DNA of 64,000 nucleotides from an uncultured SAR86 cluster bacterium (GCA_902532015.1 CACAGI010000005.1:1-64000); one strand, 5' to 3'; counted from the stretch's first letter, positions 639 to 53,781 are shown. The notes: a model not told the origin generated them from the letters alone. Translations and numbers: made by a program.

Positions 639-1739
639 TTAATTTTTGTAAGTCTTCAAGTCTTTTACTTCTTTACCTGAAATAAAATCATTAATGATTT
701 GAGCTAACTCAGGACCCACTTCTTCTTGAACAAAATGTCCAGCTCCTCCAAGCGTTATTATTGTTGGATTTGGTATGCGATTTACAAAATCATCTTTCAT
801 TCTTATTGTTATTCTTTCTTCGCCTCCAAACGCAACAAGAAAAGGCTTATCCCATTTTTCATAAACCTCTTGCCAATATCTTTCATTTTCTTTCAATTGT
901 GTTGGTATCAGATAAGGCCAAATATGCGCTCCTGATTTATATTTTCCTGAAGGGTAAGGAGCTTCATATGCTCTTTTTTCGTCTTCAGTAAGTTCCAAGC
1001 CTCCAAAATTCTCAATGATACCTACAATGTCCATGTCTTCAGAATAGTAAGAATGAGCAATCCACTTTTGAAACATTGAGATCCCTTGACTGGTAGTAGG
1101 GTTTTCTGATTTAAGTGCTTCTTTTGCGGATTTTTTTAGCTCTTCAAAAGTAATTGGTCCATTCCACCAAACCATGAACTTTATTAATTGCTGAGAGAAC
1201 CAAGCCCTTAAACCTTCTCCTGTAACCATACCTGTATTAGAAACTACAACTCTTGCAAATCTATCTGGCATTTCAGCAACCACCCTCAGTCCAACAAGTC
1301 CACCCCAATCTTGACCGAAGTGAGTTACATCTTGTAGATCTAATCTTAAAACAAGTTCTTTCATGACCTCTATATGATGTTTATAGCTATAGTCGTGCTT
1401 GGATACGAATTTATCTGACTTACCAAAACCAACCATATCAGGAACAATGACTCTATGTCCCGCTTCAGCAAACACAGGAATCATTTTTCTAAACAAATAA
1501 CTCCAGGTCGGTTCACCATGAAAAAGAATTATTGGACTTGCATCTTTTGGCCCTTCGTCGAGGTAATGAATCCTTAGTCCATCTATCTCCATATAGTTGG
1601 GTTGAAATGGATAATCTATTAAATTTTCAAATCTTTCATTAGGAGTTCTTAAAACTCCTTCCTTTATCTCATCAGCAAAAGATAAAACATTCGATAATGA
1701 GAGTGAAGTAATAATGAATATTTTGAAGATTGGGCCCAT
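639..1739 (-). CDS. Exported haloalkane dehalogenase-like alpha/beta hydrolase
   Basis: Resembles subfamily I haloalkane dehalogenases, which split carbon-halogen bonds through an Asp nucleophile. HGEPTWSYLFRKM (about 74-86) is the oxyanion region, GQDWGG puts the nucleophile at Asp144 with the halide-binding Trp145 beside it, and GGAGHF puts the base at His335. At the position where DhlA has its acid Asp, the sequence reads GGEERIT, so the acid may be Glu307 or Glu308. A hydrophobic N-terminus (about 5-22) looks like a Sec signal peptide, so the enzyme is probably periplasmic, which is unusual. It lies 3 bases downstream of tolC on the same strand and is probably co-transcribed. Epoxide hydrolase or a general esterase are alternatives; halide activity is inferred from motifs only. 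Confidence 0.75.
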   Translation of the reverse strand: MGPIFKIFIITSLSLSNVLSFADEIKEGVLRTPNERFENLIDYPFQPNYMEIDGLRIHYLDEGPKDASPIILFHGEPTWSYLFRKMIPVFAEAGHRVIVPDMVGFGKSDKFVSKHDYSYKHHIEVMKELVLRLDLQDVTHFGQDWGGLVGLRVVAEMPDRFARVVVSNTGMVTGEGLRAWFSQQLIKFMVWWNGPITFEELKKSAKEALKSENPTTSQGISMFQKWIAHSYYSEDMDIVGIIENFGGLELTEDEKRAYEAPYPSGKYKSGAHIWPYLIPTQLKENERYWQEVYEKWDKPFLVAFGGEERITIRMKDDFVNRIPNPTIITLGGAGHFVQEEVGPELAQIINDFISGKEVKDLKTYKN

Positions 1740-1742
1740 TAA

Positions 1743-3080
1743 CTAATCCATTCTATTGCTAATCGAAATTAAATCTCCTGGATTAAGTGAACCAACTGAA
1801 GCCTTTAATCTCAACATGGCGATGATGTACTCATATCTAGAACTAGCATAGTCTCTTTGTGCTTGAAAGAGCCTTTTTTGTGAATCCAGAAGGTCAACGG
1901 TATTCCTGCTTCCGACCTCATAACCTACTTGAGTTGCCTCTAAGGCTGATTCAGCTGAGGCAAGTGCTTGTTTTCTGGCAGTTACATTTGCAACTTGTGT
2001 TTGAACACCAAAGTGATTGGATCGAATATCTCTAATAGTAGATCTTTCAGTGTAGATAGTTTGTTCCTTTGCTCTATCATAATTTGCAAAGGCCTGTCTT
2101 CTTGCTGAGCTAATAGATCCACCAGCGTATAAAGGAAGATTAAATTGAATAGCGTATTGTCTAGTATCTTGCTCTATTCCAAATAATGGATTTTGTATGA
2201 AACCACCGAATTTTCCTTGTTTAGAAGTGCTTTTTGTAACTCTACCTACAATATCTATTTGGGGAAGATGGTTTGAAGTTGATGCTCTTGCACTATGTTT
2301 TGCTGCATCTCTTTGGAACTTTGCTGACTTTAATTGTAAGTTATTTTTTAGTCCTAACATTACCCAACTATCTCTATCAAGAGGATCTGGCATAGAAATT
2401 TCGAAGTTTTCTTGCAAAGGAGACAATAAAGTAACTTCTTTCCCAACTATAGAAGTTAATGCTTCTCTAGCAGAGTCTAATTGAGCCTCTCTTGATATTC
2501 TCGAAACTACAGTTAAGTCATAGGCTGCCTGAGTCTCTTGAACTTCTGTTATTGCTGCCAATCCAACTTCAAATCTTTTTTTAGCAAGATCTTTTTGTCT
2601 CCCTATAGCTTTTTCTTCTGCACGAGCTGCATTTAAACTATCAATAGAATTAAGAACATTGAAATAAGCTGAAGCTACTCTAATCATAGTTTCTTGCTGT
2701 TGATAAGCAAATTCGGCTTCAGCACTTTCAGTCAATGATTTCCCTCTTTTAAATTGAAACCATTTATCCATTCTAAAGATAGGTTGAGATAGCCTGCCTG
2801 AGTAATTGTTAGAATTGTATTGATCTATAATTTGATCTAAAACTCTATATTCATTCCAATTGGTGCTACCTGAAACGCTCAGAGTAGGCAGCAGGCCAGC
2901 TCTTCCCTGAACTTTATTTTCTTTTCCAGCCCTATAAGAAGCTTCTGCAGCTTTTAAGAGAGGATCATTTTTAAGTGCTAGTTCGTAAACTTCTTCAAGA
3001 TTTTCACCTTTCACAAAATTAGAAATGAAAGAGATAGATAAAGAAAAAATTAAGAATTTCGTAAGATTTCTATAGTTCAT
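1743..3080 (-). CDS. tolC: TolC-family outer membrane efflux channel
   Basis: Trimeric outer-membrane channel used by tripartite efflux pumps and type I secretion. At 445 residues it has the family's normal length. An N-terminal signal peptide (to about residue 25) is followed by the repeated OEP pattern: LEEVYELALKNDPLLKAAEA near the start, long Ala/Gln/Glu-rich helices, and the second-repeat helix ending in GSRNTVDLLDSQKRLFQAQ. No membrane-fusion protein or pump gene lies nearby; the downstream neighbour is the dehalogenase-like hydrolase. The upstream region is shared with a divergent peroxiredoxin gene and holds an inverted repeat over the likely -10 site, so repression of this gene is plausible. 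TypA family membership is clear; identity as the main TolC is likely but not proven. Confidence 0.88.
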   Translation of the reverse strand: MNYRNLTKFLIFSLSISFISNFVKGENLEEVYELALKNDPLLKAAEASYRAGKENKVQGRAGLLPTLSVSGSTNWNEYRVLDQIIDQYNSNNYSGRLSQPIFRMDKWFQFKRGKSLTESAEAEFAYQQQETMIRVASAYFNVLNSIDSLNAARAEEKAIGRQKDLAKKRFEVGLAAITEVQETQAAYDLTVVSRISREAQLDSAREALTSIVGKEVTLLSPLQENFEISMPDPLDRDSWVMLGLKNNLQLKSAKFQRDAAKHSARASTSNHLPQIDIVGRVTKSTSKQGKFGGFIQNPLFGIEQDTRQYAIQFNLPLYAGGSISSARRQAFANYDRAKEQTIYTERSTIRDIRSNHFGVQTQVANVTARKQALASAESALEATQVGYEVGSRNTVDLLDSQKRLFQAQRDYASSRYEYIIAMLRLKASVGSLNPGDLISISNRMD

Positions 3081-3094
3081 AACAAAATACCTTT

Positions 3095-3120
3095 AGGTGT
3101 ATTACTATACTATAACACCT
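3095..3120. promoter_or_regulatory. Inverted repeat over the tolC -10 region, candidate operator
   Basis: AGGTGT and ACACCT form a 6-base inverted repeat separated by 14 bases. On the minus strand the enclosed segment contains TATAGT, the likely -10 of tolC (3109-3114), with TTGGAG (3131-3136) 16 bases upstream as a poor -35. A dimeric repressor bound here would cover the promoter. No regulator gene is adjacent. The repeat is short, so chance is possible. Confidence 0.35.
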
Positions 3121-3144
3121 ATTTTAAACTCTCCAAAATATTAT

Positions 3145-3173
3145 TTGTTAACGTGCTAAAGTATTTCTATACT
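3145..3173 (+). promoter_or_regulatory. Sigma70-type promoter of the peroxiredoxin/P450 group
   Basis: TTGTTA (3145-3150) and TATACT (3168-3173) are separated by exactly 17 bases. Transcription would start near 3180, leaving a leader of about 20 bases that contains TGAGG at 3186-3190, 8 bases before the ATG at 3199. This is one of the better-formed promoters in the window and could drive the plus-strand genes through 7475. Confidence 0.55.
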
Positions 3174-3198
3174 TACTTTAAAATTTGAGGATAAAAAT

Positions 3199-3681
3199 AT
3201 GACTATACAAGTTGGAGATACGTTACCTGCAATTAATTTAACAACTATGACAGCAGAAGGTCCTAAACCTATGGGAATTAATGAATTATGTTCTGGAAAA
3301 AAGGTTGTTCTTTTTGCTGTACCTGGAGCATTTACGCCAACCTGCAGCGTTCAGCACTTACCAGGGTTCATAGAGAATAGCCAAGCGATTAAAGACAAAG
3401 GTGTCGATGTTGTCGCTTGTATTTCCGTAAATGATCCATTCGTAATGAGTGCTTGGAGTAAAGATAGAGGAGTTGGAGAAAATGTAATGATGCTTTCTGA
3501 TGGTAATTGTGAGTTTACTTCAGCAATAGGCTTAGAAATGGATGGGAGTGGCTTTGGTTTAGGAACTAGGTCCCAAAGATATGCAATGGTTGTTGAGGAC
3601 GGAGTAGTTTCTGAACTTCAAGTTGAGGCAGGCCCAGGTTTAGATGTTAGTTCTGCAGAATCTATTTTAGAAACTCTTTAA
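3199..3681 (+). CDS. Peroxiredoxin, Prx5/hybrid type
   Basis: Thiol peroxidase that reduces hydrogen peroxide and alkyl hydroperoxides. The signature PGAFTPTCS places the peroxidatic Cys at residue 49; a further Cys at residue 72 (VVACISV) may act as resolving residue or may be structural. The later LGTRSQRYAMVV segment is also typical of this branch. At 160 residues it is the usual length, with no fused glutaredoxin domain. It begins with a TGAGG ribosome-binding site and a good promoter and is followed after one base by the P450 gene, so it may protect against peroxide leaked by uncoupled P450 turnover. That role is inference; the family is secure. Confidence 0.92.
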   Translation: MTIQVGDTLPAINLTTMTAEGPKPMGINELCSGKKVVLFAVPGAFTPTCSVQHLPGFIENSQAIKDKGVDVVACISVNDPFVMSAWSKDRGVGENVMMLSDGNCEFTSAIGLEMDGSGFGLGTRSQRYAMVVEDGVVSELQVEAGPGLDVSSAESILETL

Positions 3682-3682
3682 T

Positions 3683-4921
3683 ATGGCAAAACCTATATTT
3701 GACATAGGTCAAATTTGTGAATTAGATAAGTGGGAAACCTTTATCGATGGGCAGCCTTTCGACACCTTTAAGAAACTCAGAAAGGAAGCACCTATTTATT
3801 GGCACGAAGAAAGCCTTGAATTCGAACCAGGGTTTTGGGCTTTAACTAAACATGAAGACATAATTAAAGTATCTAAAGACCCATTAACCTTTTCTTCAGC
3901 AGTAGGAGGCCATCTCATGACCATGGGTGACCCAGAAATAGTAGATCCTGCTGCTGTAGCTGCAATCATTGGAAATATGATTGGTATGGACCCACCTGAT
4001 CATCAAATATACAGAAAAATGGTAGCACCAAGTTTTACTCCTAAGGCCATTAGGAGTTTAGAAAGTGATATGAGGTTAAAAGTTAGGGAGCTGCTAGATA
4101 ACGTTTCTGATAAAGGAGAATTTAATTTCGTAACAGAAATATCTGAACAACTTCCTTTATGGGTTTTATGTGAAATGATGGGAATTGCAGAATCTGAAAG
4201 ACCAAAAATTAGGGACTTAGTTAATAATTTGACTGATGCTTCTATAAATGCTGATCCAGATAAATCGATGCAAGTTTGGTTTAATTATATGGAACTCTTC
4301 AAGATGGGTAGGGACATGATTGAAGAAAGAAGAAAGAATCCAACAGATGACTTAATGAGCGTAGTAGCGAATACAAAAGTAGAAGGCGGAGAATTGCCAC
4401 CTGAGCTTTTAGATGGGTTTTTCTTATTGATGGTTATCGCAGGCAATGAAACAACCAGAAATACTATAACTGGGGGATTGATGGCCTTGACAGAAAACCC
4501 CGAAGAAAGAGAAAAACTGATTAAAGATCCTTCTTTGATAGCTAATGCTACTGATGAGATGTTGAGATGGGTTACATCTGTAATTTATTTCAGAAGGACA
4601 GCAACTAAAGATACACAAATACGAGGTCAAGACATCCAAAAGGGAGACAAGGTTGTTATGTGGTATGGTTCTGCTAATCGAGATGAAGAAGTTTTCGAAG
4701 ATGGACATCTTTTTCAAGTTGATCGACCTAATGCAAAAAAGCACCTTGCATTTGGTGCGGGTGAACATCTTTGTTTAGGAAATAGACTAGGGCATATGCA
4801 AATAAGAATCTTATTTGAAGAATTATTGCAACGTTATCCTAATATGCACTCTACTTCTGCCCCGGTAAGGGTGCCTTCTAACTTCCTAGCGGGCATTTCT
4901 GATTTGAAAGTGAGCATTTAA
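3683..4921 (+). CDS. Cytochrome P450 monooxygenase
   Basis: Soluble bacterial-class P450 (412 residues) that hydroxylates a substrate using O2 and electrons from a ferredoxin system. The I-helix oxygen-activation motif reads AGNETTRN, the K-helix ExxR is EMLRWV, and the heme-binding loop is FGAGEHLCLGNR with the ligand Cys near residue 364. There is no membrane anchor. No ferredoxin or ferredoxin reductase is encoded nearby, so redox partners must come from elsewhere. It is followed directly by the unassigned 364-residue protein and then a kinase, which suggests that the hydroxylated product is processed further by this operon. Similar bacterial P450s act on terpenoids, steroids or fatty acids; I cannot choose between them. 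Confidence 0.93.
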   Translation: MAKPIFDIGQICELDKWETFIDGQPFDTFKKLRKEAPIYWHEESLEFEPGFWALTKHEDIIKVSKDPLTFSSAVGGHLMTMGDPEIVDPAAVAAIIGNMIGMDPPDHQIYRKMVAPSFTPKAIRSLESDMRLKVRELLDNVSDKGEFNFVTEISEQLPLWVLCEMMGIAESERPKIRDLVNNLTDASINADPDKSMQVWFNYMELFKMGRDMIEERRKNPTDDLMSVVANTKVEGGELPPELLDGFFLLMVIAGNETTRNTITGGLMALTENPEEREKLIKDPSLIANATDEMLRWVTSVIYFRRTATKDTQIRGQDIQKGDKVVMWYGSANRDEEVFEDGHLFQVDRPNAKKHLAFGAGEHLCLGNRLGHMQIRILFEELLQRYPNMHSTSAPVRVPSNFLAGISDLKVSI

Positions 4922-6016
4922 ATGATCACAAAAGGGGATGATTATCCCATACATCAATTGCCAATACCTATTTCTGAAGTAGGAACTGAAAGAAATTTTT
5001 ATGACCGGTACTTTTTTAATGGTTATAACGAAAATGGAAGTATATTTTTTGCTACTGCTCTATGCGTTTACCCAAACCTTAATTTAATAGACGGAAGCTT
5101 CGTGCTTGTTATTGATGGAACGCAACATAATTTTAGATATTCAGATATCTTAAACCAAGAGAGATTAGATACCTCAGTTGGATCACTTAAAGTTGTGGTA
5201 ATTGAGCCTCTTAAGGAATTAAGAATAGAAGTTGATGACAAAGAAAAGGGTATTCGAGTTGAATTAAATTTCTCTGGTAGATTTGAACCTATGCAAGAAC
5301 CCAGGATGACAATGAAAAGTGGCCCACGAACCACCATGGACTCCACCAGAATGACCCAACATGGACTCTGGAAAGGACAAATATCATTTAAAGATAGAGA
5401 AATTGATGTATCAGAACAAGAATATAAAGGCTCTAGAGATAGGTCCTGGGGCGTAAGACCTGTTGGTCTTCCCGATAGCCAAATGTTACCTCCATTGCAA
5501 ATTCCACAATTCTACTGGTTATGGGCACCTGCAAACTTCGATAATTGCACTTCGCATTTGTATTTTGTTGACGATTTATTAGGGAATCCAACCCATTCTC
5601 ATTGCGTCATTCAGAAAAATGCAAAAGCAAATATTTTGAATAATTTAAAGAAAGAAATTAGTTATAAAGAAGGAACACGAAGAATTGAAGAAGCTAGATT
5701 CACTGCCGAAACTCAAGATGGATCAGAAATCTCATGGATTTTAGAACCAAAATATCATATTTATATGTGTGGTTTGGGCTATATGCATCCAGAATGGGGC
5801 CATGGACACTTTAAGGGCGAAAACCAATCAACTTATGATTCATATGATTTAAATGAGGACATGCATGATCCTCCTTTCCTTCATATTCAAGCAATTTGTG
5901 ACTTCACCTTAAAAGATAAGAATGAAACTAAGAAGGGCTTGGGTGTGCTAGAAGAATTATTGATAGGACCTCACGCACCTAGTGGTTTTAAGGAGTTACT
6001 GGATGGCTATAAATAA
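4922..6016 (+). CDS. Uncharacterised protein in the P450-kinase operon
   Basis: 364 residues, soluble, no signal peptide. I do not recognise the family with certainty. It is rich in Trp, Tyr and beta-type stretches, with blocks such as RDRSWGVRP and QFYWLWAPANF in the middle. This recalls the two-lipocalin-domain layout of CrtC/AttH-like proteins (carotenoid hydratases and relatives) and uncharacterised DUF families found beside APH-type kinases. The start ATG follows the P450 stop with no gap and the end lies 2 bases before the kinase gene, so the three are almost surely co-translated. A role in converting or carrying the P450 product is inferred from position only. Confidence 0.6.
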   Translation: MITKGDDYPIHQLPIPISEVGTERNFYDRYFFNGYNENGSIFFATALCVYPNLNLIDGSFVLVIDGTQHNFRYSDILNQERLDTSVGSLKVVVIEPLKELRIEVDDKEKGIRVELNFSGRFEPMQEPRMTMKSGPRTTMDSTRMTQHGLWKGQISFKDREIDVSEQEYKGSRDRSWGVRPVGLPDSQMLPPLQIPQFYWLWAPANFDNCTSHLYFVDDLLGNPTHSHCVIQKNAKANILNNLKKEISYKEGTRRIEEARFTAETQDGSEISWILEPKYHIYMCGLGYMHPEWGHGHFKGENQSTYDSYDLNEDMHDPPFLHIQAICDFTLKDKNETKKGLGVLEELLIGPHAPSGFKELLDGYK

Positions 6017-6018
6017 GT

Positions 6019-7029
6019 ATGGAATCTAATAAAGATCTATCTAATAAATTTATTGCTTATTATTCGTCTTTAGTTGGTAAGGAAATCTCATTGTTATCTT
6101 TTGAGAGAATCTTTGGAGGCGCTAGCAGAGAAACTTACAAAATCCATATTAAAGATCAGTCGAATTTGCAAGAGAAACTGATTTTACGAAGAACTCAGAA
6201 AAGCTCTTTAATTGAAACTTCTCAATCCACAGAGTACCTAGCTTATTCTGCTTATCAAGAAACATCCGTCCCAGTTCCTTTAATGATAGATATCAATGAA
6301 GACCAAGAAATTCTAGGAGCACCATTTATGTTAATGCAGCAGTTAGACGGAGTTGCTGCAAGTCCCTTTACTCCTGATGTGTATTCACCGAATGAACAAA
6401 AATTAGGTGAACAGTTTTGGTCAATCTTAGGAGAGATTGCAAAAAAAGATATAGAAGATGATTTTATCAATCAATTTGACAATACCGGTAACCCCTGTTG
6501 GAAACAGGAATTGGACAAATGGATTGCTGTCATAAGGGAGGATTCAATATCTGTTGAACCAATATTAGAAGCAGGGATAAGAAAACTATATGAAAACGAA
6601 CCTAAAGAATCAAAAAAGAAGAGTTTAGTTCATGGTGATTACAGAAATGGCAATTTTCTTTTTATGGAAGACAGGATAACCGGAATACTTGATTGGGAGA
6701 TGGCACATATAGGAGACCCTCTTGAAGACTTAGCTTGGGCCTTATCTCCTATTTGGAGCTGGCAAGATCAAGGAAAACCAGCTTATATGATAGCCAGACA
6801 GGAAGCTTTATCTATATGGGAAAAAGTAAGTGGTTTAACTATCGATGAAAATGACCTGAAATGGTGGGAACTATTTGCATGTGTAAAAGGAATGGCAATA
6901 TGGATTTCGGCAGGTAATGAGTTTAAGACTGGAAAAAACATTGATCCAATTAATCTCTTTTCTCCATGGATTCCAGGAGATATACATTTAGAGATTATTC
7001 TTAATATCTTAGATGAGGATTTAAATTGA
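6019..7029 (+). CDS. APH/ACAD10-11-type small-molecule kinase
   Basis: Aminoglycoside-phosphotransferase-fold kinase of 336 residues. The N-lobe has the Gly-containing loop FGGASRETYKI, the catalytic loop is LVHGDYRNGNFLF, and the metal-binding segment is GILDWEMAHIGDPLEDLAWA. This layout matches the kinase half of eukaryotic ACAD10/11 and bacterial LvaA, which phosphorylate hydroxyl groups on hydroxyacyl-CoA compounds so that they can be eliminated, more than true antibiotic-resistance enzymes. The gene overlaps the next by 4 bases. With a P450 upstream, an attractive reading is hydroxylation followed by phosphorylation, but the substrate is unknown. Confidence 0.82.
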   Translation: MESNKDLSNKFIAYYSSLVGKEISLLSFERIFGGASRETYKIHIKDQSNLQEKLILRRTQKSSLIETSQSTEYLAYSAYQETSVPVPLMIDINEDQEILGAPFMLMQQLDGVAASPFTPDVYSPNEQKLGEQFWSILGEIAKKDIEDDFINQFDNTGNPCWKQELDKWIAVIREDSISVEPILEAGIRKLYENEPKESKKKSLVHGDYRNGNFLFMEDRITGILDWEMAHIGDPLEDLAWALSPIWSWQDQGKPAYMIARQEALSIWEKVSGLTIDENDLKWWELFACVKGMAIWISAGNEFKTGKNIDPINLFSPWIPGDIHLEIILNILDEDLN

Positions 7030-7475
7030 AACCTGAAATCAATATAGCTCTTATGAATGCAGCCCAGGAAATCCTATCAAGGTTTTCACCTATGATCGAG
7101 GATGAATACGAACAATCAAGATTAAATTCTTGGGGAGCTCTAATTTTAATTTCTGCAATGAAATTTAACCAATCCTACTCTTCGTTAGTTGAAGAAAACA
7201 AGAGTATGATCAGCTGGTTAACAAAAACAAAAAAGAACTACAGCAAGGAATTATCTGCTGAAATTGATAATGTTGTTGTAAAAGAGAATGTTGAACAAAA
7301 TATTTTAGATGAATATAACCAGTCCCTAAGAAGAATACTAATTAAAGCTCATATAGAAATAGATTTATTAGATGATGTTAAAAATAAAAGAGCTTGTCTT
7401 CAATTATTACGAAAAATGCATAGCCATAGGAAGGTTAGTGATCTTATAGGTATGCTTCAACAAGCAGATTCCTAA
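7026..7475 (+). CDS. Small helical protein, possible LvaB-like kinase partner
   Basis: 149 residues, soluble and mostly alpha-helical, starting with TTG in a TTGA overlap with the kinase stop codon. This overlap supports translational coupling, although an ATG lies 27 bases further on. I do not recognise a named domain with certainty. The N-terminal pattern (ALMNAAQEILSRFSP, then a second helix) and the position right after an APH-type kinase resemble the small partner LvaB/DUF6285 that accompanies LvaA-type kinases. The C-terminal half is charged and helical. It is the last gene of the plus-strand group. The partner assignment is inference. Confidence 0.6.
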   Translation: MKPEINIALMNAAQEILSRFSPMIEDEYEQSRLNSWGALILISAMKFNQSYSSLVEENKSMISWLTKTKKNYSKELSAEIDNVVVKENVEQNILDEYNQSLRRILIKAHIEIDLLDDVKNKRACLQLLRKMHSHRKVSDLIGMLQQADS

Positions 7476-7685: not shown

Positions 7686-8735
7686 CTAGAGTTCTTTTAT
7701 GTTTATTTTGGCAATTGCTATTCCGTTCTCACCTCTTACAGCGTAAAGCAAATAGATTTTTTCTCCTTCAACAAAAATAGCCGGGTCTCTTAATTGATTA
7801 ACGGGCGTGTTGATTGCACTAGCAGTTGATTCATATAACGGTAAATTTGAACCTTCCCAATCTTCTTCAGGACGTAGGACTTCTATTTTTTCAGAGGCTT
7901 TCCATAGAATTGCTGGTTTTTTTAGGTTAACTTTTGACATGAAAATTCGTTCAGGCTTATCTCCCTTTCGTGTATAAAATATAAGTAATTGATCTTTGTG
8001 CACCAATACTGCTGAATGCCTGACACTATCTTCTAGTATTTGATTGACTGGAGTATAGTCCCCTATATCCCCATTATTTTTATAAATGACGCCAGGCATT
8101 GAAATTGCGTAGTCATTTTTTTTATACGTAAATTTTCTAAAGTAAGGCCATCCAACTATTTTCTCCTTAACAGTAAAATCTAATCCGTTATTAGATGTAG
8201 CAACTCTAGTTTTCTGTAAACCAAACTCATCAAGTCCGTGAAAATACATTACCAGTCTTTGATTGACATCATCAACGTGAACATCAGGCGAAGCTATATG
8301 CGGAATCGTAAGATCATCAATCTTTTTTGGTATATAAGGCAAAAGATCTGGATGTGCTTTCCTTTGTCCAAGTGTTTCAAGATCAAAATCTTTTGGGATT
8401 GCAGGCTTTTCCTGGAGAAAAAAGGAATTTTCTAGTAATAACGTTCCTCCTGGTTTGATTTGCCAAGGACCTTTTAAAGTATTTGAATAGGCTAGTTTAA
8501 TCCGATCACCTTTATGATCTGCAAAATATAAATAATATTTACCTAACGGATCTTTTATCCATGCAGGTACTTTTATTAAAGATGGACCTTGGACATTCGT
8601 TCCTATTTCCTTACTAAGAAGTGGAGGAATAATTAAACCGTTTTCAAATCTCTGAACTTCTATTTTCACTTCTGTTATGGTTCTATCGCAACTTAATAAT
8701 AGAACTATAAGTAGGACAATTATCAATTTCTTCAT
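7686..8735 (-). CDS. Lipoprotein with GH43-like beta-propeller
   Basis: 349-residue predicted lipoprotein. A short signal peptide ends in the lipobox LLLSC at about residues 12-16, and Asp follows the Cys, which in E. coli keeps lipoproteins in the inner membrane. The mature part resembles five-bladed-propeller glycoside hydrolases (GH43/GH32-like): repeated blade-type segments such as YYLYFADHKGDRIKLAYS and SPDVHVDD, with acidic residues at strand starts, and a final RDPAIFVEGEKIYLLYA blade. I cannot point to a full catalytic triad, so a binding-only role is possible. It is transcribed alone, divergent from parE. Confidence 0.65.
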   Translation of the reverse strand: MKKLIIVLLIVLLLSCDRTITEVKIEVQRFENGLIIPPLLSKEIGTNVQGPSLIKVPAWIKDPLGKYYLYFADHKGDRIKLAYSNTLKGPWQIKPGGTLLLENSFFLQEKPAIPKDFDLETLGQRKAHPDLLPYIPKKIDDLTIPHIASPDVHVDDVNQRLVMYFHGLDEFGLQKTRVATSNNGLDFTVKEKIVGWPYFRKFTYKKNDYAISMPGVIYKNNGDIGDYTPVNQILEDSVRHSAVLVHKDQLLIFYTRKGDKPERIFMSKVNLKKPAILWKASEKIEVLRPEEDWEGSNLPLYESTASAINTPVNQLRDPAIFVEGEKIYLLYAVRGENGIAIAKINIKEL

Positions 8736-8786
8736 TTTGGAACATAATTTTTTATTTCTATTTGTCTAACTTTTTTTCCAACAAGG

Positions 8787-8792
8787 TATAAT
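8787..8792 (+). promoter_or_regulatory. -10 element of parE-parC
   Basis: A perfect TATAAT lies 13 bases before the parE ATG. The best -35 match (TTGTCT, 8762-8767) is 19 bases upstream. The expected transcript would have a leader of only about 7 bases and there is no Shine-Dalgarno sequence. Confidence 0.5.
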
Positions 8793-8805
8793 AAGCTAAA
8801 ACTCA

Positions 8806-10692
8806 ATGGCTAGAGAATATAATGCTGAATCTATAGAAGTCCTCTCTGGACTTGATCCGGTTAAAAAACGACCGGGTATGTATACCGAAACCTCTAGGCC
8901 AAATCACTTAGCCTTAGAAGTTATTGATAATAGCATCGATGAAGCGCTTGCAGGATATGCCACAACTATTGATGTTCAATTAAATAAAGATGGTTCCCTT
9001 AGCGTTGAAGATGATGGAAGAGGTATGCCTGTTGGGGTGCATCCTGATGAAGGTATTCCAGCAGTAGAGCTAATATTTACTAGGCTCCACGCTGGAGCAA
9101 AATTTTCTGATGAAGATTATAAATTTTCTGGAGGTCTTCATGGTGTTGGCGTATCTGTAGTCAATGCTTTATCACTTAATTTATCTGCTGAAATCAAAAG
9201 AGGCGGTCACAAATACCTTCTAGAGTTTAAGAATAGTGAAAAAAAGAAAGAATTAGCTAAGCTAGATAAAGTAGGCAAAAAGAATACCGGTACCAAAGTA
9301 ACCTTTCTTCCTGATCCTCAATATTTTGATAATGCTAAGTTTTCAGTATCCCAACTTATGGCTGCACTGAAAGCAAAAGCAGTGTTGTCTCCAGGCCTAA
9401 AGATTTCCTTTAAAGATAAGGAGTCAGGAAAATCAGAGAGTTGGTGTTTTGTAGATGGTTTAGCAGCTTACTTAGTTGCCAGCAACAAAGGAGGAGACTT
9501 AATTCCTGCTGAACCTTTTGAAGGGGAACATTTTAATGAAGATGGAGGTCTCACATGGGCCTTACAATGGGTACAAGGAATATCTGATCCTATTTCTGAG
9601 AGTTACGTAAATTTAATTCCAACCACTCAAGGTGGTACTCATGTTAACGGATTAAGATCAGGCCTAAATGAAGCCTTAAAAGAATTTTGTGAGTTTAGAA
9701 ATCTAATTCCAAGAGGGGTGAAGATAACCGCGGATGATGTTTGGTTGAACTGCAGTTCAATACTTTCCGCTAAATTAAAAGATCCCCAATTCACTGGCCA
9801 AACAAAAGAAAGACTTTCTTCGAAAGAATTTTCTACAGTTGCTTCAGCAATCGTTAAAGATGCTTTTAGTCTTTGGTTAAACCAACACACTGAAGAAGGT
9901 GAAGCCATTGCACAAATATGTATAGATAATGCTCAAGCAAGACAGAAAAGTAATAAGAAAGTAGATAGAAAGAAGGTAAGTTCTGGACTTGCTCTGCCTG
10001 GGAAACTAACTGATTGTACTTCGGAGGATCCAGAAACTAGCGAATTATTTTTAGTAGAAGGCCAGTCAGCTGGAGGTTCAGCTATTAAGGCAAGAGATAG
10101 AAATTTTCAGGCGATCTTGCCTTTAAAAGGAAAGATCATGAATACTTGGGAAGTTGAGGTTAGTGATGTTTTGGCATCTCAAGAAGTAAATAATATTGCT
10201 GTTGCATTAGGAGTTGAGCCTGGGAGTAATAATTTAGAGGGGCTAAGATACGGAAAAGTTTGTATATTGGCTGATGCAGATTCCGATGGCCTTCATATAG
10301 CTACTTTATTATGTGCTTTATTTTTAAGACATTTTAGGCCTTTAGTAGAGGCTGGAAGGGTATATGTCTCTATGCCGCCTTTATACAGAGTTGATCAAGG
10401 TAAAGACGTTCATTACGCAATAGATGATAACGAGAAAGATAAGCTCGTGAACACACTACAGAAGAAAAATAAGAAAACAAAGATCGAGGTGCAAAGATTT
10501 AAAGGATTAGGAGAAATGAATGCTTCCCAATTAAGAGAAACAACTATGCTTCCTGGATTAAGAAGACTCGTTCAATTAACTGTAAAGACCGGTGATAAAT
10601 CAATGCAAGTTGTAGATATGTTGTTATCTAAGAAAAGGTCTCAAGACCGAAAAGAGTGGCTGGAAGATAAAGGAAATTTAGCAAATGTCTGA
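8806..10692 (+). CDS. parE: DNA topoisomerase IV subunit B
   Basis: ATPase subunit of topoisomerase IV, which unlinks replicated chromosomes. It is 628 residues, the ParE length, and lacks the GyrB insert. The GHKL ATP site shows [20 protein letters not shown] and [14 protein letters not shown]. The TOPRIM part shows [11 protein letters not shown] and later [12 protein letters not shown], followed by the conserved [10 protein letters not shown]. The start [16 protein letters not shown] aligns with E. coli ParE without extension. It overlaps parC by 8 bases, so the two subunits are co-translated. Only this type II pair is in the window; gyrase must be elsewhere. Confidence 0.97.
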
Positions 10693-16140: not shown

Positions 16141-17304
16141 TTATTTCCTCTGGTCAAATCTTTTTCCAACCATGGCTGAAGCAATATTAATTTTTTGAAT
16201 ATCTATTGTTCCTCCTGCAATCCCCCATCCCCAAACGTCTCTATAATGTCTTTCCATAGGATACTCTTTATTGAAACCATAACCGCCCATGAGTTGCATT
16301 GCAGAAGCAACAACTTCTCTAGCAGTTTCGTTTGAGAAACATTTACCTACACTTGATTCAAAGATACTCGGAAATCCTTCTTGCGCGTTGTGCGCGGCTC
16401 TATGTATAAGAAGTCTTGAGCCTTCAACTTTCATGGCCATTTCTGCCAATTTCATCTGCACTGCTTGAAATTCAACTATAGGTTTACCAAATTGCTCCCT
16501 TTCTTGTACATACTTTAAGGCCTTCTCTAAGGCTCCAGAAGCTTGGCCTAGACACATAGTTGCGTTACCGCATCTCTCAAGATCAAAGGCTTCCATTAAT
16601 TTTTTGAAACCTCCATCTGCTTCTACTATTACATTACCGATTGGAACTTCCACGTTATCAAAGAAAATATCAGCCGAAGGTATCCCACTCCAACCCATTA
16701 ATTTCTCTTGTTGCCCAAAACTCATACCTGGAGTGCCTTTTTCAACGTAGACAGCGCCGATACCTTTTGCTCCGGGATCGTCAGACATTTTGCAATAAAC
16801 TACATATCCCTCTGAGTGCCCTCCACCGGAACACCATCTTTTGGTTCCATTCAATATAATTTTGTCATTTTTAATCTCAGCTTTTGTTGTAAGGTCTGTT
16901 AGGGCTGATCCGGCATTAGGCTCAGACATGGAAACAGCCACCACAATATTTCCCTTACAAACTTCAGGTATGATTTTTTCTTTAAGTGCTTCTGAAGCAA
17001 AATGTTCAATTGCTTTTACAGGACCAACACAACTTTCAAATATAGGAAACGCTACAGCAGAAGAAATTTTTGCAAATTCTTCCATAACTAAAAGAGCATC
17101 TAGATTTGATAGACCTAATCCTCCGTATTTATCTGATACATTTATTCCTAAAAACCCCATTTCAGAATATTTTTTTAACCATTCTTTTGATAAAGGCTCT
17201 CCAGTTTCCTCAATTGATAAAGCTACTTCTATCATCTCATTTTGAGCAAAATTTCTAGCTATTTCCTGTAATTCCCTTTGTTGCTCTGAAAGTTTAAAGT
17301 CCAT
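16141..17304 (-). CDS. Acyl-CoA dehydrogenase
   Basis: FAD-dependent alpha,beta-dehydrogenase of acyl-CoA thioesters, 387 residues. Flavin and substrate motifs are VAVSMSEPNAGSALTD and KRWCSGGG, and the tail has QLMGGYGFNKEYPMERHYRD. At the usual catalytic Glu position of short- and medium-chain enzymes (YEGT) it reads AGGT, so the base is probably the Glu in FDLERCG, as in isovaleryl-CoA and long-chain dehydrogenases. TAGGAGA precedes the ATG. It follows the class III CoA-transferase gene by 8 bases, suggesting a pathway in which an acid is activated to its CoA ester and then oxidised. Substrate is unknown. Confidence 0.92.
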   Translation of the reverse strand: MDFKLSEQQRELQEIARNFAQNEMIEVALSIEETGEPLSKEWLKKYSEMGFLGINVSDKYGGLGLSNLDALLVMEEFAKISSAVAFPIFESCVGPVKAIEHFASEALKEKIIPEVCKGNIVVAVSMSEPNAGSALTDLTTKAEIKNDKIILNGTKRWCSGGGHSEGYVVYCKMSDDPGAKGIGAVYVEKGTPGMSFGQQEKLMGWSGIPSADIFFDNVEVPIGNVIVEADGGFKKLMEAFDLERCGNATMCLGQASGALEKALKYVQEREQFGKPIVEFQAVQMKLAEMAMKVEGSRLLIHRAAHNAQEGFPSIFESSVGKCFSNETAREVVASAMQLMGGYGFNKEYPMERHYRDVWGWGIAGGTIDIQKINIASAMVGKRFDQRK

Positions 17305-24473: not shown

Positions 24474-25877
24474 TTATGTTCCTGATCGCCAATTTCCATG
24501 AAAACCATATGGAATTCTGTGAGGAAGCATTGCTCTTGCAATAGGCCCTGATGAAATATTTTCAGCATCGAATATCATTAGATCTGAACGATTCTCTTCT
24601 CCTAGATAGCCTAAAGCAATAACATAGCCAACGCCTTCATCTGCATCGGGTGATTTTGGAACGAATATTGGCTCTCCCACTGCATCAAGTTCTGATAAAG
24701 AAAAAACTTCTTTATTGCCTGTTTTATAGTCGTATCTCGTAATTGAGTTAAAACTAATTCCCTTTGGAGAGTTTCCATGATTAGAAGCATAAATACCATA
24801 ACGGTAATTAGACATACTGTATCTTTCATCTAATCTCGGAAATTCACCAATATGTTCATCAAGGTAGTCTTTTTTTATTGAACCTGAGTTGGAAGTAAGG
24901 TCAATTTCCCAACGATTTAGCCTTGCTTCAGCTTTTTTATTGTCAGGTGTAGATCCGTCAAGATGAGGAAATAAAGGTGCTTCTTCAAATTGCATCATAT
25001 CAGCAACTATCTTATCCCCATCGGTATATGCATTCATGGGATGAAAAACATAACAAGGATCATCCTCAATCCATTTGATATCTTTGACGGTCCCGTTTCT
25101 TGGCATAACTCCTATCTGACTTAATCTATTTGAGTCCCAAGCTATTGGCGACATGCCTTTAGCTACAAGATTGAAATCTATGATTAATGGAAAGATAGGA
25201 AATATTACATGTTCGGTTGTTACTATAAAGTCGTGAACCATACTCGAATAAGGAGTTTCAAATTCAGAATAACCTGTAAGTTCTCCAGAGGCATCGATAA
25301 CAAAGTAAGTCATCTTATTTTCACCAAATCCATAACTAAAACCAAACATTTCACCAGTTTTGGGATCAATCTTGGGATGAGCTGTCATAGCAGAATGTAA
25401 TTTTTTCTTATAGTCCCAAGATCCTTTTGATTCAAGGCTTATTGGGTCTAGTTCAAAGGGTGGATGTCCTTCTTCAAGGGCAAGCAGTTTATTAGCATGA
25501 TAAATGATATTGGTATTTGCTGTTCCATCTGAGCTATCAAAATCATAAATTGGATCAGATTCCATAGGATTAAGGGCATTGATTAAAGATCTCCCAGCCT
25601 TTCTTTCTTGTTTCCATTTAGAAGTTTGTACCCATCTATTCTTGTAAGAGATTTTGCCGTCCTCAAAATTAAACGCATGGATCATTCCATCTCCAGCAAA
25701 CCAGTGGTATTGTCCTCCCATTGGAGGAAATTGTGGATCAGGACCATTTCTGTAGTAGCTTCCAAACAAGTCTTTAGGCACCTCACCTTCGATAATTAAA
25801 TCTTTTATATCGCACTCCATCCTTAGCGGTGCGTAGTTCCCTTTAAGATTAGGATGATCAGGATAAACTTCTGTCAT
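24474..25877 (-). CDS. Carotenoid cleavage oxygenase (RPE65/CCD family)
   Basis: 467-residue seven-bladed propeller dioxygenase with non-haem Fe(II). The four iron-binding His residues sit in TAHPKID, MVHDFIV, VFHPMNAY and the last GFHGNW close to the C-terminus. YRNGPDPQF near residue 45 is also a family mark. It could cleave carotenoids or apocarotenoids (a retinal supply for a rhodopsin is one option) or stilbene-type lignin compounds; the sequence alone does not decide. No lycopene cyclase, phytoene synthase or rhodopsin gene is in the window. GAGGAA precedes the ATG, 2 bases after the dedA-like gene, so both are probably co-transcribed. Confidence 0.9.
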   Translation of the reverse strand: MTEVYPDHPNLKGNYAPLRMECDIKDLIIEGEVPKDLFGSYYRNGPDPQFPPMGGQYHWFAGDGMIHAFNFEDGKISYKNRWVQTSKWKQERKAGRSLINALNPMESDPIYDFDSSDGTANTNIIYHANKLLALEEGHPPFELDPISLESKGSWDYKKKLHSAMTAHPKIDPKTGEMFGFSYGFGENKMTYFVIDASGELTGYSEFETPYSSMVHDFIVTTEHVIFPIFPLIIDFNLVAKGMSPIAWDSNRLSQIGVMPRNGTVKDIKWIEDDPCYVFHPMNAYTDGDKIVADMMQFEEAPLFPHLDGSTPDNKKAEARLNRWEIDLTSNSGSIKKDYLDEHIGEFPRLDERYSMSNYRYGIYASNHGNSPKGISFNSITRYDYKTGNKEVFSLSELDAVGEPIFVPKSPDADEGVGYVIALGYLGEENRSDLMIFDAENISSGPIARAMLPHRIPYGFHGNWRSGT

Positions 25878-49127: not shown

Positions 49128-51416
49128 ATGAAGAAATTTTTATATTTCTTTTTGATGGGTATCTTGTATTTTGCAAGCCACTTAAATGCTGAAATTATTA
49201 TCGATGGAAAGTTAGATGATGATGAGTGGGCTGATGCGAAGCAGATCACAAGATTCTATGAAGTATTTCCCTATACATTGAATCCTGTTGACGATATAAA
49301 AACAGTCATTCTGATCCAAGAATCTAAGGAAGGAATATACATAGGCTTCAAGAACTATCAATCTAACTCAAGTATGCGATCTCAAAGTCACCAAAGAGAC
49401 AATGAAAGATCAATCGCAGATAAAAATGGTGTAACTATAGACTTTGATGCAGATAAACTATCTGGTTATCAATTTTTTGTTTCTTCAAGTGGTTCTATAG
49501 GCGATGCAACATATAGAAATGAGAATGAAAGAAGCTATGACTGGGACGCAGATTGGCTATCTGCTGCAACCACTGAAGAGGGAGTCTGGTATTCAGAGAT
49601 TTTTATACCTTGGACAGTAGCTCCAATGAAAGCTCAATCTGGAGCCCAACGTAAAGTTAGAATGGCTTTTTATAGAATGTTAGCTGGACCTCAAAGAGTA
49701 ATAGCGACTATTAAAGGGAGCTCTTATGAGAACCTTTATTTATCTGTATTTAATGATTATTCTTTTAAAAATTATCAATCTTCTAGTATTGATTTCTTTC
49801 CTTACCTTACGACTAGTGAAGATAGAATAAATAGTGAAGTAGAAAATAAGATTGGAGCTGAAGTATTTTGGAAAATTGATTCTAGCAAACAATTAAACGC
49901 TGCTTTTAATCCTGATTTTGGTCAAGTAGAAAGTGATGATGTGGTAGTTAATTTTTCTGCCACAGAGACTTTTTACTCAGACAAGAGACCTTTCTTCTCA
50001 GAAAATCATGGGTTATTTAATGTTACAGCTTGGCGATTCTTATATGTAATTAATACTAGACGCATAGGAGGAGAGCCAGATTATGATTGTTCTAAATTTG
50101 GTGATATGCAAGAAGATAACTGCAACAACAGCAAGATAGGGGCCAATGATATTGATTATGCTTTACGTTATTCTCAGCAAGGAGAAACTTTAGATATTGG
50201 TTTTTTAGGTGCTTCCGAAGCTGACGAAAATTTTAGTCGTGGAAAAGATTTTTATTCAGTTAGGCTTAGAACACGAAAAGATGATCTAACCATTGGCTAT
50301 TTAGGAACATACGTAGATAGACCTGTAATTGACAGGACAGCTCAAGTAAACACTATGGATTTTGATTATAGACCATCCTCTGTATTGAGACTAAATGGTT
50401 TATTAGTCCACTCTAAAGTAAATGATAAGAATGGTTACGGATTTGACTTTGGACTAGGATATGACCCTGATAAAACACGTCGTTTTGGATTTGGTTTATA
50501 TTATTTTGACGAGAATCTTGATGTAAATGACATGGGCTATTTAGCTAGAAATGATTGGCTTATGTTTGGAGGAAGATATCAAATAAGAAAAACTGATTTC
50601 ACTAGTGAGTCTTTGTTCAGATCAAGACAATATGAATTCGGCTGGTCTCTTAAATCTGACTCTTCATTTAAAAAGGAACCTTCAGCAGTTAGATTTTCGA
50701 TTAATAATTCTTTTAAGGATAGTTCCGAACTTAAATTTGGTACTTTTTATAGAGTTACTGGACGAGACAATAGAATTACTAGGAATTCTGAGTTAGCACC
50801 TTTCGTCAATTTACCTGAAGGCTATGGTATTGAAATGGATTTTAATGGTCCTAGAGAAAATTTTCTTAGATATTCTCTAGATGCTAAGAGGCAAAAGGGA
50901 GATAGTTATTCAGGAGAATTGGGATGGACATCTTCGTATAGAGGTTCTATAAGCATTTCTCCTTTAGAAACATTGACGGCAAAATTGAGCTATAGACACA
51001 CTGAAGAGGCAAATTGGTTGAATTGGATCAATGACAACCTTCTTGCTACTTATGACAGAAAACAAAGAAGAACTACAGCTAGCATTCAATGGGTTGAAGG
51101 TACAAAGCATGAATTGAGAATTAAGGCTCAAATGTTGGCATTTACAGCTAGAAACCCTAAACCTTACTTAGGAGATTTATATGGAAACCTAAATCCATAC
51201 CAAATTTCTTTACCACCCATCACAGTGAGTCAATTAGCTTTTCAGATCAGGTACAGATATGAAATAAAACCGTTAGCTTATTTATATGTCGTTTACACTA
51301 AAGGAGGTAGGGTAGCGATGAATGACGAAGAAGATAGCTTAAATGAACTCTACAAAAGACCTTGGAATGATCCTCAAAGCGATAATTTTACAATCAAAGT
51401 TAGATATAGATTTTAA
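49128..51416 (+). CDS. DUF5916-like protein with CBM9-like N-domain, predicted outer-membrane barrel (copy 1)
   Basis: 762 residues. Signal peptide to about residue 21, then IIIDGKLDDDEWADAKQI, the start of a CBM9-like beta-sandwich, with GVTIDFDADKLSGYQFFVSSSG. The junction block FNPDFGQVESDDVVVNFSATETFYSDKRPFF is the DUF5916 hallmark. The C-terminal half alternates polar and aromatic residues and ends IKVRYRF, a terminal Phe like the Bam recognition signal of outer-membrane proteins. Likely a surface or periplasm-facing barrel that binds or takes up a carbohydrate-like ligand. No enzymatic motif recognised. Close paralogue of the next gene. Confidence 0.8.
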   Translation: MKKFLYFFLMGILYFASHLNAEIIIDGKLDDDEWADAKQITRFYEVFPYTLNPVDDIKTVILIQESKEGIYIGFKNYQSNSSMRSQSHQRDNERSIADKNGVTIDFDADKLSGYQFFVSSSGSIGDATYRNENERSYDWDADWLSAATTEEGVWYSEIFIPWTVAPMKAQSGAQRKVRMAFYRMLAGPQRVIATIKGSSYENLYLSVFNDYSFKNYQSSSIDFFPYLTTSEDRINSEVENKIGAEVFWKIDSSKQLNAAFNPDFGQVESDDVVVNFSATETFYSDKRPFFSENHGLFNVTAWRFLYVINTRRIGGEPDYDCSKFGDMQEDNCNNSKIGANDIDYALRYSQQGETLDIGFLGASEADENFSRGKDFYSVRLRTRKDDLTIGYLGTYVDRPVIDRTAQVNTMDFDYRPSSVLRLNGLLVHSKVNDKNGYGFDFGLGYDPDKTRRFGFGLYYFDENLDVNDMGYLARNDWLMFGGRYQIRKTDFTSESLFRSRQYEFGWSLKSDSSFKKEPSAVRFSINNSFKDSSELKFGTFYRVTGRDNRITRNSELAPFVNLPEGYGIEMDFNGPRENFLRYSLDAKRQKGDSYSGELGWTSSYRGSISISPLETLTAKLSYRHTEEANWLNWINDNLLATYDRKQRRTTASIQWVEGTKHELRIKAQMLAFTARNPKPYLGDLYGNLNPYQISLPPITVSQLAFQIRYRYEIKPLAYLYVVYTKGGRVAMNDEEDSLNELYKRPWNDPQSDNFTIKVRYRF

Positions 51417-51447
51417 GGCATCCAACACTTAGAATACCTCTCCTTAC

Positions 51448-53781
51448 ATGGGAACTCTATTGCATAGGAAGCTAAAATCTCTCTTACCTTATTTTTTTGG
51501 GCTTATCTGCTTGAATCCTTATCTTGGTGCTTTTGATATTTCTGTAGATGGCGTATTAGATGAAAAAGAATGGTCACAAGCGAGAGAGTGGACTAAGTAT
51601 TATGAGTCGATGCCTTTTTCACTTGCGGAACCAAAGCATTATCAAAAGGTTCTTATATTGGAAGACGAAAAAGGGATGTATTTTGCTTTTATTAATCTTC
51701 AGTCTAAAGATTCCATAAGAGCAAACAAACATGAACGTGATGACGAAATGGCCAATGCGGATAAATGCGGTCTAGCTATAGATTTTGATGGAGATGGATT
51801 AACAGCTTATGGTTTTACTGTTTCAGCTGGAGGATCTATTAGTGACGGCATTTATAGGAATGAGAATGATGTTAACTATGACTGGGATGCAGATTGGGAT
51901 TCAGCTACTTCAATCAATAGCGACGGCTGGACTGCCGAAATGTTCATACCTTGGAGCATAGCTCCCATGAAGACTCAGGTAGGCGATAAGAGAAAAGTTA
52001 AACTTTCTTTTTGGAGAATGGTTGCAGAAGAATGGAGAGTTAACACTTCTATTAAAGGCAATCCTAGACAAGAGAAATTTATGTCTCTTTTCCATGAAAT
52101 GGATTTTAATAATTATAACGTTTCGAAGATTGATTTCTTTCCTTACATCAATGTTACCAATGATAGAGTTTTAGAAGAGACAAAAACAAAAGCCGGCGCA
52201 GAAATATTTTGGAAGATCGATTCAGGTAAGCAATTAAATATAGCTTTAAATCCTGACTTTGGGCAGGTCGAGAGTGACGAACTTGTGGTCAACTTCACTT
52301 CATCGGAAACTTTTTATTCTGATAAGAGACCTTTCTTTTCTGAAAATCATTCTCTTTTTGCTGTTAGAGGCTATGAATTTTTTTATGTAATAAATACCAG
52401 GAGAATTGGAGCTGCCCCCGATTATAATTGCACTAAATATAGCGGGTCGTTAAAGAATCTTTGCGATGCAAGCCAGGTTGGTATTTCAGATATAGATTAT
52501 GCTGTCAGATATACACAGCAAGGTGAGTCTGTTGACTTTGGATTCTTAGGTGCCTCTGAGGCAGATGAACCATTTACTCAGGGTAGAGATTTTTATTCGG
52601 TAAGATCAATAAAGAATGGCGAAAATTTTTCCATTGGTTATTTAGGAACTTATACAGATAGACCTGTTTTAGATAGAAGCGCCGATGTACATTCTATAGA
52701 TGCTATTTATAGACCAAATGATAAGATCAGGTTAGAAACTATCTTCCTCACTTCTAGTGTTGAGCAAGGAATAGATAACACTGAAACATCTGGAGAAATT
52801 TTTAGATTCAGATTAACTGCTTCTCCAAGAAAAGGAAGATGGCATGATTTTGGTATTTTCTTCTTTGATGAAGAGACAGACATCAGCGATATGGGATACC
52901 AAATGAATAATAATATGCTTTGGGCGGGAGGTCAGAATGGATTGAAGTTTACTGACTTTGATAATTCATCTGTTCTACTATCCACTGAGTATGAGTATGG
53001 ATTTGGTTACGAAGCCAATGCTGATTTAGATAAATCTGCTATATTTGCTTCTCTTACTTACAAAAGTACTTTTAAGAATACTTCATTTCTAGAATTTAGT
53101 AATTTTCATAGATCTGCGAGTAAAGATTATTGGATTACTAGAGGAAATGCTGATGCTCCATTCATCAAGAAGCCTGAAAATTATGGAACTTCGTTACAAT
53201 ACAAGGGTCCCTCAAAAGACTTTTTTAATTATTTTATAGAAGTTAAAAGAGAAAGAGGTACCACGTGGGGATTTTCTGCTCTCGGTTTTAATACCGCTTA
53301 CACTGCTCAAATCGATCTATCTCCTAAAGATAATCTTAAATTTTCTCTCATGCACCAACACGCTACTGAAGATATTTGGTTAAATTGGGTCGAGGGCAGC
53401 TTGTTGGCTATCTATGATGAGAAAAAGCAGAGAACAACAGTGGCATCTTTAAATTGGTTTGGTGGAGATAAACATGAGTTAAGAATGAAAGCTCAAATGG
53501 TTGCATTCACTGCAAGAAAGCCTATGGCTTATATAGGTGACAAGTATGGAGCTTTGAATCCTATAGAAATGGCTCTACCGCCATTTACTTTAAGTGATCT
53601 AGCATTTCAAATAAGATATCGCTATGAAATATTACCTTTAGCATATCTATATGTAGTTTATTCTAAAGGTGGAAGAATTGTTGAATACGATTCTGAAGAT
53701 AGCTTAGGAGAATTGTATAAACGACCTTGGAATGACCCTCAAGCCGATACTTTTACTGTAAAAGTTAGATACAGGTTCTAA
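51448..53781 (+). CDS. DUF5916-like protein with CBM9-like N-domain, predicted outer-membrane barrel (copy 2)
   Basis: 777 residues, a tandem paralogue of the preceding gene with conserved blocks along its whole length: ISVDGVLDEKEWSQA, NENDVNYDWDADWDSA, PDFGQVESDELVVNFTSSETFYSDKRPFFSENH, FLGASEADEPF, LGTYTDRPVLDRSADV and the same ending VKVRYRF. The signal peptide is longer (about 28 residues). Thirty-one bases separate the two, without a clear promoter. Differences cluster in probable surface loops, for example an additional EQGIDNTETSGE stretch. Function unknown; two diverged copies hint at different ligands. Confidence 0.8.
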   Translation: MGTLLHRKLKSLLPYFFGLICLNPYLGAFDISVDGVLDEKEWSQAREWTKYYESMPFSLAEPKHYQKVLILEDEKGMYFAFINLQSKDSIRANKHERDDEMANADKCGLAIDFDGDGLTAYGFTVSAGGSISDGIYRNENDVNYDWDADWDSATSINSDGWTAEMFIPWSIAPMKTQVGDKRKVKLSFWRMVAEEWRVNTSIKGNPRQEKFMSLFHEMDFNNYNVSKIDFFPYINVTNDRVLEETKTKAGAEIFWKIDSGKQLNIALNPDFGQVESDELVVNFTSSETFYSDKRPFFSENHSLFAVRGYEFFYVINTRRIGAAPDYNCTKYSGSLKNLCDASQVGISDIDYAVRYTQQGESVDFGFLGASEADEPFTQGRDFYSVRSIKNGENFSIGYLGTYTDRPVLDRSADVHSIDAIYRPNDKIRLETIFLTSSVEQGIDNTETSGEIFRFRLTASPRKGRWHDFGIFFFDEETDISDMGYQMNNNMLWAGGQNGLKFTDFDNSSVLLSTEYEYGFGYEANADLDKSAIFASLTYKSTFKNTSFLEFSNFHRSASKDYWITRGNADAPFIKKPENYGTSLQYKGPSKDFFNYFIEVKRERGTTWGFSALGFNTAYTAQIDLSPKDNLKFSLMHQHATEDIWLNWVEGSLLAIYDEKKQRTTVASLNWFGGDKHELRMKAQMVAFTARKPMAYIGDKYGALNPIEMALPPFTLSDLAFQIRYRYEILPLAYLYVVYSKGGRIVEYDSEDSLGELYKRPWNDPQADTFTVKVRYRF

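Follow-up and report, generated by a model that had tools for sequence, protein, structure and literature searches.

A SAR86 operon with a CYP125-like P450, an LvaA-type kinase and a phosphosteroid-lyase relative: a proposed route of oxidative desaturation

The single cytochrome P450 detected (PF00067) in a 1.16 Mb, 66% complete genome of an uncultured SAR86 cluster bacterium belongs to an operon from whose other members its chemistry can be predicted. We propose that this operon probably performs an oxidative desaturation, in which hydroxylation by the P450, phosphorylation by an LvaA-type kinase and elimination by a lyase follow one another, likely on an isoprenoid side chain. During the first step, the CYP125-like P450 would attack a hydrophobic substrate, most likely a sterol-like or terpenoid isoprenoid side chain, and hydroxylate one of its unactivated carbons. 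The kinase and a small helical partner would then phosphorylate the hydroxyl with ATP, as LvaA does with LvaB, and a protein of the 25-phosphosteroid lyase (25-PSL) type would eliminate the phosphate, leaving an alkene usable by downstream oxidation. The net desaturation would cost O2, reductant and ATP; a peroxiredoxin encoded in the same operon probably clears peroxide arising from P450 uncoupling. The kinase-lyase half of the route, for which close sequence homology and gene linkage speak together, is likely, and it is probable that the P450 supplies the hydroxyl for the kinase, the basis here being repeated linkage. We infer the activities, the order of the steps and the catabolic nature of the route, and the exact substrate is a guess. 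Few heterotrophs of the surface ocean are as abundant as SAR86 bacteria, about whose carbon sources little is known.

The operon occupies positions 3199-7475 of the stretch of DNA analyzed (64,000 nucleotides, termed the window) and consists of five plus-strand ORFs. These encode a peroxiredoxin of the Redoxin family (3199-3681; PF08534, E 4.4e-38), the CYP125-like cytochrome P450 (3683-4921; PF00067, 4.6e-29), a CrtC-like protein of 364 aa, predicted to be a CrtC/AttH-fold lyase of the Rv3169 / 25-PSL family (4922-6016; NF053593, 5.5e-104), an APH-fold small-molecule kinase similar to LvaA and the ACAD10-11 kinases (6019-7029; PF01636, 4.4e-30) and a small all-helical protein of 149 aa with a TTG start, which profile ranking and gene position suggest to be a distant DUF6285/LvaB relative (7026-7475). 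The spacing between them amounts to 1, 0, 2 and -4 bases, the last value being an overlap of the kinase gene and the small gene. ORF coordinates thus confirm the compact operon, with gaps of 0-2 bases or a 4-base overlap, that an earlier note on this DNA had described; the title of that note named four of the products and left out the peroxiredoxin, which comes first. The "good promoter" that it also mentioned is found where expected, as a TTGTTA-17-TATACT site 5' of the peroxiredoxin gene (3145-3173, plus strand; 9/12 in a consensus scan). Its evidential value did not hold up, as the scan returned 20 such sites against a mean of 38 in shuffles, i.e., they are rarer than the shuffled expectation. 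The site is therefore no evidence on its own, and promoter strength was rejected as an argument.

The order peroxiredoxin-P450-lyase-kinase-small gene is repeated in 25 other SAR86 loci, where the genes are again separated by short gaps or overlap slightly; all of these loci keep the peroxiredoxin. This recurrence places the arrangement far from chance and answers the earlier suggestion to look for a conserved neighborhood. Only one of the 25 (L016) lacks the small gene, and there the contig stops inside the kinase. The operon is flanked in most SAR86 loci by an outer-membrane efflux gene on one side and by two topoisomerase subunit genes on the other, and these shared neighbors indicate that the set has probably been inherited vertically. 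Conservation is highest for the P450 (85-96% identity in the nearer SAR86 loci, 71-72% in L016, L021, L025 and L028), followed by the lyase (59-82%) and the small protein (34-77%); the lyase homologs at 81-82% identity are annotated as SAR86. Between operon and topoisomerase genes, a minus-strand gene for a putative lipoprotein, weakly GH43-like (7686-8735; E 0.04), is present in 17 loci. L016 and L021 carry a 631-aa gene of unknown kind directly 5' of the peroxiredoxin, separated by an 18-base gap.

The 364-aa protein gave no match in the Pfam search. Judged by its sequence and its structural model, it is a full-length member of the Rv3169 / 25-PSL family. It scores 347.9 bits against NF053593 (Rv3169 family, NCBIfam; cut-off 150) over residues 3-347 of 364, and it matches the 25-PSL entry 9fzn at 2.2e-41 by sequence and at 4.5e-77 with a 39-member profile (residues 2-322). 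Entries of 25-PSL are also its sole sequence relatives of solved structure. The predicted structure (pLDDT 90) aligns with 9fzn at a TM score of 0.80 both ways, over 355-362 columns and with 30% identity. Weaker Foldseek matches were obtained for AttH, kievitone hydratase and Diels-Alderases (E about 1e-9, TM 0.45-0.55, about 10% identity). Hence the CrtC- or lipocalin-like fold assigned earlier is borne out, and the label "uncharacterised" given to the protein has to be dropped, since it has known relatives. The aspartate of the SRDRSWG motif, Asp173 in this protein (GSRDRSWG), is invariant among the 39 aligned members, and in 9g4c, which contains bound product and phosphate, the same residue is changed from D to N in comparison to 9fzn. 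Asp173 is the presumed catalytic residue, and phosphate elimination is the activity predicted from sequence and model. Membership in this family supplies the elimination step that was missing from the earlier reading. With a 25-PSL-type lyase present, elimination of the ACAD/LvaC type is not expected, nor does the operon imply that the substrate is a CoA thioester. A second protein of the same genome (about 340 aa; G000:C1:110846-111565) is distantly Rv3169-like and scores below the family cut-off; it is found in most SAR86-family genomes too.

In the kinase, both the HxDxxxxN motif (HGDYRNGN at residue 205) and the acidic metal motif (LDWE at residue 224) of the APH fold are intact. The solved chains closest to it are 3dxp, 9o56, ACAD11 and 3ats (3e-9), the latter of which we take to be Rv3168, and it shows weak similarity (4e-5) to 9fsg, likely the entry of the 25-hydroxysteroid kinase (25-HSK) by title and neighbors. 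To place the kinase in a tree, 24 APH kinases were included as controls; 100 proteobacterial genomes supplied 23 of these. Kinases linked to both lyase and small partner form one clade (support 100/99). This clade is sister to the DUF6285-linked kinases, and the two together are set apart from the 24 controls with a support of 97/95. The DUF6285-linked kinases alone are joined at 98/98, and the operon kinase lies outside their clade, in the sister position. Four lyase-linked kinases that have no small partner fall elsewhere in the tree, outside the 97/95 group. By sequence, the operon kinase is of the LvaA / ACAD10-11 kind, which upholds the resemblance noticed earlier. A second SAR86 group (L031-L038 and L041) possesses a lyase of the same family (about 50-53% identity) along with a different kinase (about 25%) and no P450; the lyase gene lies at 8001-9095 in most of these loci, and in the majority a CoA-transferase is encoded upstream and a small protein resembling SRPBCC downstream.

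The small partner is modeled with five helices (pLDDT 87). Its N-terminal MKP is conserved across relatives, which supports the TTG start. No Pfam family, DUF6285 included, matched the protein above cut-off; its best relative reaches 10.3 bits against Pfam DUF6285 (gathering score 28.1), and the hhalign comparison with DUF6285 was not significant (E 0.13). Likewise, neither its profile against the PDB nor a Foldseek search with its model yielded a convincing match. Direct assignment to Pfam DUF6285 was ruled out, as it is below threshold. When the small-protein profile was run over 4728 ORFs, the first matches outside the family were DUF6285 proteins (E 0.0025, 0.013, 0.045 and on). The small gene directly follows an LvaA-type kinase in SAR86 and alphaproteobacterial loci, and it was found 3' of every kinase examined in the clade, including L062 and L065, where BLAST had missed it. 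An unbiased profile search of 399 proteobacterial genomes added five further partners, 5/5 of them in lyase-kinase-small loci and all outside SAR86. Taken together, the top rank of DUF6285, the sister relationship between the kinase clades and the identical location of the genes make common descent of the small protein and DUF6285 (LvaB) likely. The location corresponding to LvaB, to which the earlier note had drawn attention, therefore stands, backed by the profile ranking and short of the Pfam threshold. Kinase and small partner are presumably physically associated. In a different locus (L086:337-1797, plus strand), a single 486-aa protein combines an APH kinase with a DUF6285 domain. This fusion supports the idea that the two act together, and long open frames around DUF6285 matches in several other genomes suggest more such fusions.

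Among solved P450s, the operon P450 is most similar to CYP125MRCA (7.5e-99), followed by CYP126, CYP153, CYP124 and CYP125. The score against CYP125MRCA, an ancestral CYP125 by its title, is 334 bits, compared to about 225-236 bits against extant CYP125, which is outscored by extant CYP126, CYP153 and CYP124. The motifs AGNETTR (residue 253), EMLR (292) and FGAGEHLCLG (357) are intact, and no redox partners are encoded in the operon. Across the lyase family, lyase and APH-fold kinase genes adjoin one another, often with an overlap of -4, -8 or -1 base, and the kinase cluster is present in 70 of the 82 loci scanned. Many Sphingomonadales and other SAR86 loci contain lyase and kinase and lack a P450 in the vicinity, so that the P450 is not an obligatory partner. 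The same P450-lyase-kinase order is present in a Halieaceae locus (L050), where the P450 is 40% identical and positioned 61 bases upstream of the lyase. In L152 and L154, two of the five non-SAR86 loci from the 399-genome search, a CYP108-like P450 (33-34%) precedes kinase and small gene, and the lyase is divergent. The earlier note had named a small protein unlike LvaB/DUF6285, combined with a lack of P450s near kinase homologs elsewhere, as grounds for abandoning its proposal; P450s, albeit of another kind, do adjoin them in two other proteobacterial genomes, and the proposal withstands this check. The L152 and L154 genomes encode about 4 and 11 P450s, from which we estimate that immediate adjacency would arise by chance with a probability of the order of 0.1-0.2% each; both loci belong to one genus and may represent one event. 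It is possible, at somewhat below even chances, that SAR86 has as a core trait an aerobic desaturation cassette, dependent on ATP and initiated by a P450, in which the P450 is combined with a two-subunit LvaAB-type kinase and a CrtC-fold phosphoester lyase, and that this cassette, recurring elsewhere with other P450s, is a general route from an unactivated alkyl carbon to an alkene. Locus L153 has a 1530-aa open frame (836-5428) 100 bases upstream of the lyase, which matches the heme-ligand end of P450s and, farther along, DyP-type peroxidase domains.

In the ATP-dependent dehydration of alcohols by Sterolibacterium, 25-HSK phosphorylates the tertiary C25 alcohol and a separate, then unknown lyase eliminates the phosphate; close to the kinase gene, no lyase candidate was reported (PMC8449060). 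The SAR86 operon and the pair of Sterolibacterium denitrificans (PDB 9fzn, 9g2i, 9g4c) share the lyase family with its key Asp, an APH-fold kinase and the two-step logic of phosphorylation followed by elimination. However, the SAR86 kinase has a small partner, belongs to the LvaA branch and is only weakly similar to 9fsg, and kinase and lyase genes share one operon. In aerobic SAR86, a P450 would provide the hydroxyl, whereas it comes from a Mo enzyme in S. denitrificans, an anaerobic cholesterol degrader. LvaAB-LvaC of Pseudomonas putida and ACAD10/11 employ a related kinase branch, in which the hydroxyl is phosphorylated into a leaving group, and a small helical partner likewise follows the LvaA kinase; the SAR86 partner, however, is below the DUF6285 threshold, and a CrtC/AttH-fold lyase takes the place of an ACAD/LvaC-type enzyme. 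Rv3168 and Rv3169 of Mycobacterium tuberculosis are adjacent in one operon (PMC5340868) and also pair an APH-fold kinase with an Rv3169-family lyase, but no P450 or small partner is described there and the kinases are distantly similar. The kinase-lyase chemistry has been described (PMC8449060; PDB 9fzn). The combination of LvaAB-type kinase, 25-PSL-type lyase and P450 was not found in the searchable literature and appears new.

We favor an isoprenoid side chain, sterol-like or other, as the substrate. Pointers to a sterol side chain come from the 25-PSL relationship, from the P450, whose best solved matches lie in the CYP125/126/124 group, and from side-chain genes reported in SAR86 (PMC11582366, PMC4810484). 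According to a published survey (PMC11582366), homologs of cyp125, fadE26/27 and fadE34 are widespread in SAR86, and one SAR86 family has CYP125 homologs in the majority of its genomes. KshA, a marker of ring degradation, was detected in 2/35 SAR86-family genomes and in none of the window's genus. Ring degradation is therefore not implied, and trimming of a side chain or use of another isoprenoid is as likely. Full steroid mineralization was rejected on account of the 33/35 genomes lacking KshA, and our proposal is restricted to side-chain or other isoprenoid chemistry. Elsewhere in the same genome (L194:6253-7811, G000 C17), a gene for a ChsH2-like zinc-ribbon/OB protein is directly followed by one for an SCP2-type thiolase, a pair resembling the steroid side-chain aldol cleavage set, and the same kind of pair adjoins the cassette at L152:9740-11324. 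Such pairs occur in other pathways; they were rejected as proof of pathway and serve as a hint only.

The usual site of oxidation by CYP125 enzymes is the terminal C26, at which no dehydration is required; the P450 might therefore work alongside kinase and lyase instead of upstream of them. Kinase and lyase would then constitute an ATP-dependent dehydratase for ready-hydroxylated alcohols, e.g., tertiary terpenoid alcohols of algal origin or 25-hydroxysterols, next to a CYP125-type C26 oxidase working on the same compound class. This would agree with the nearness of the P450 to the C26 steroid monooxygenases of the CYP125 group, with the cyp125, fadE26/27 and fadE34 homologs in SAR86 and with the many lyase-kinase pairs that have no P450. 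The different P450 types that adjoin the kinase-small-lyase set according to lineage fit a hydroxyl supplier better than a fixed C26 oxidase, and we regard the dehydratase explanation as unlikely.

A route like that of LvaABC, with the kinase complex acting on 4-hydroxyacyl-CoA esters and the CrtC-like protein merely binding or isomerizing the product, is improbable in our assessment. ACAD10/11 and LvaA/LvaC do use 4-hydroxyacyl-CoAs (PMC12440821), and the kinase and its small partner have LvaAB-type pairs as their sister group. Yet no acyl-CoA dehydrogenase gene lies in or beside the operon, the window's nearest one (16141-17304) being located at a distance of about 9 kb, and the lyase position is held by a 25-PSL relative with the key Asp. 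Given that the AttH/CrtC fold includes kievitone hydratase, AttH and Diels-Alderases, the CrtC-like protein could also be a hydratase or pericyclase, with the kinase directed at another target and a linkage that is regulatory only. Those structural matches are far weaker than the one to 25-PSL, and translational coupling of lyase and kinase is widely recurrent; we therefore consider this explanation very improbable. If the favored sequence of P450 hydroxylation, phosphorylation and elimination is true, the operon P450 gains a testable product, the mycobacterial Rv3168-Rv3169 pair and many other Rv3169-family genes gain a likely activity, and LvaAB-type kinases are extended past the hydroxyacyl-CoA route.

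Further features of the window were assessed by eye. On the plus strand, 49128-53781 encodes two tandem, similar proteins of about 770 aa with apparent signal peptides and an aromatic C-terminal end, which are probably outer-membrane proteins. A putative carotenoid-cleavage oxygenase of the RPE65 type is encoded on the minus strand at 24474-25877.
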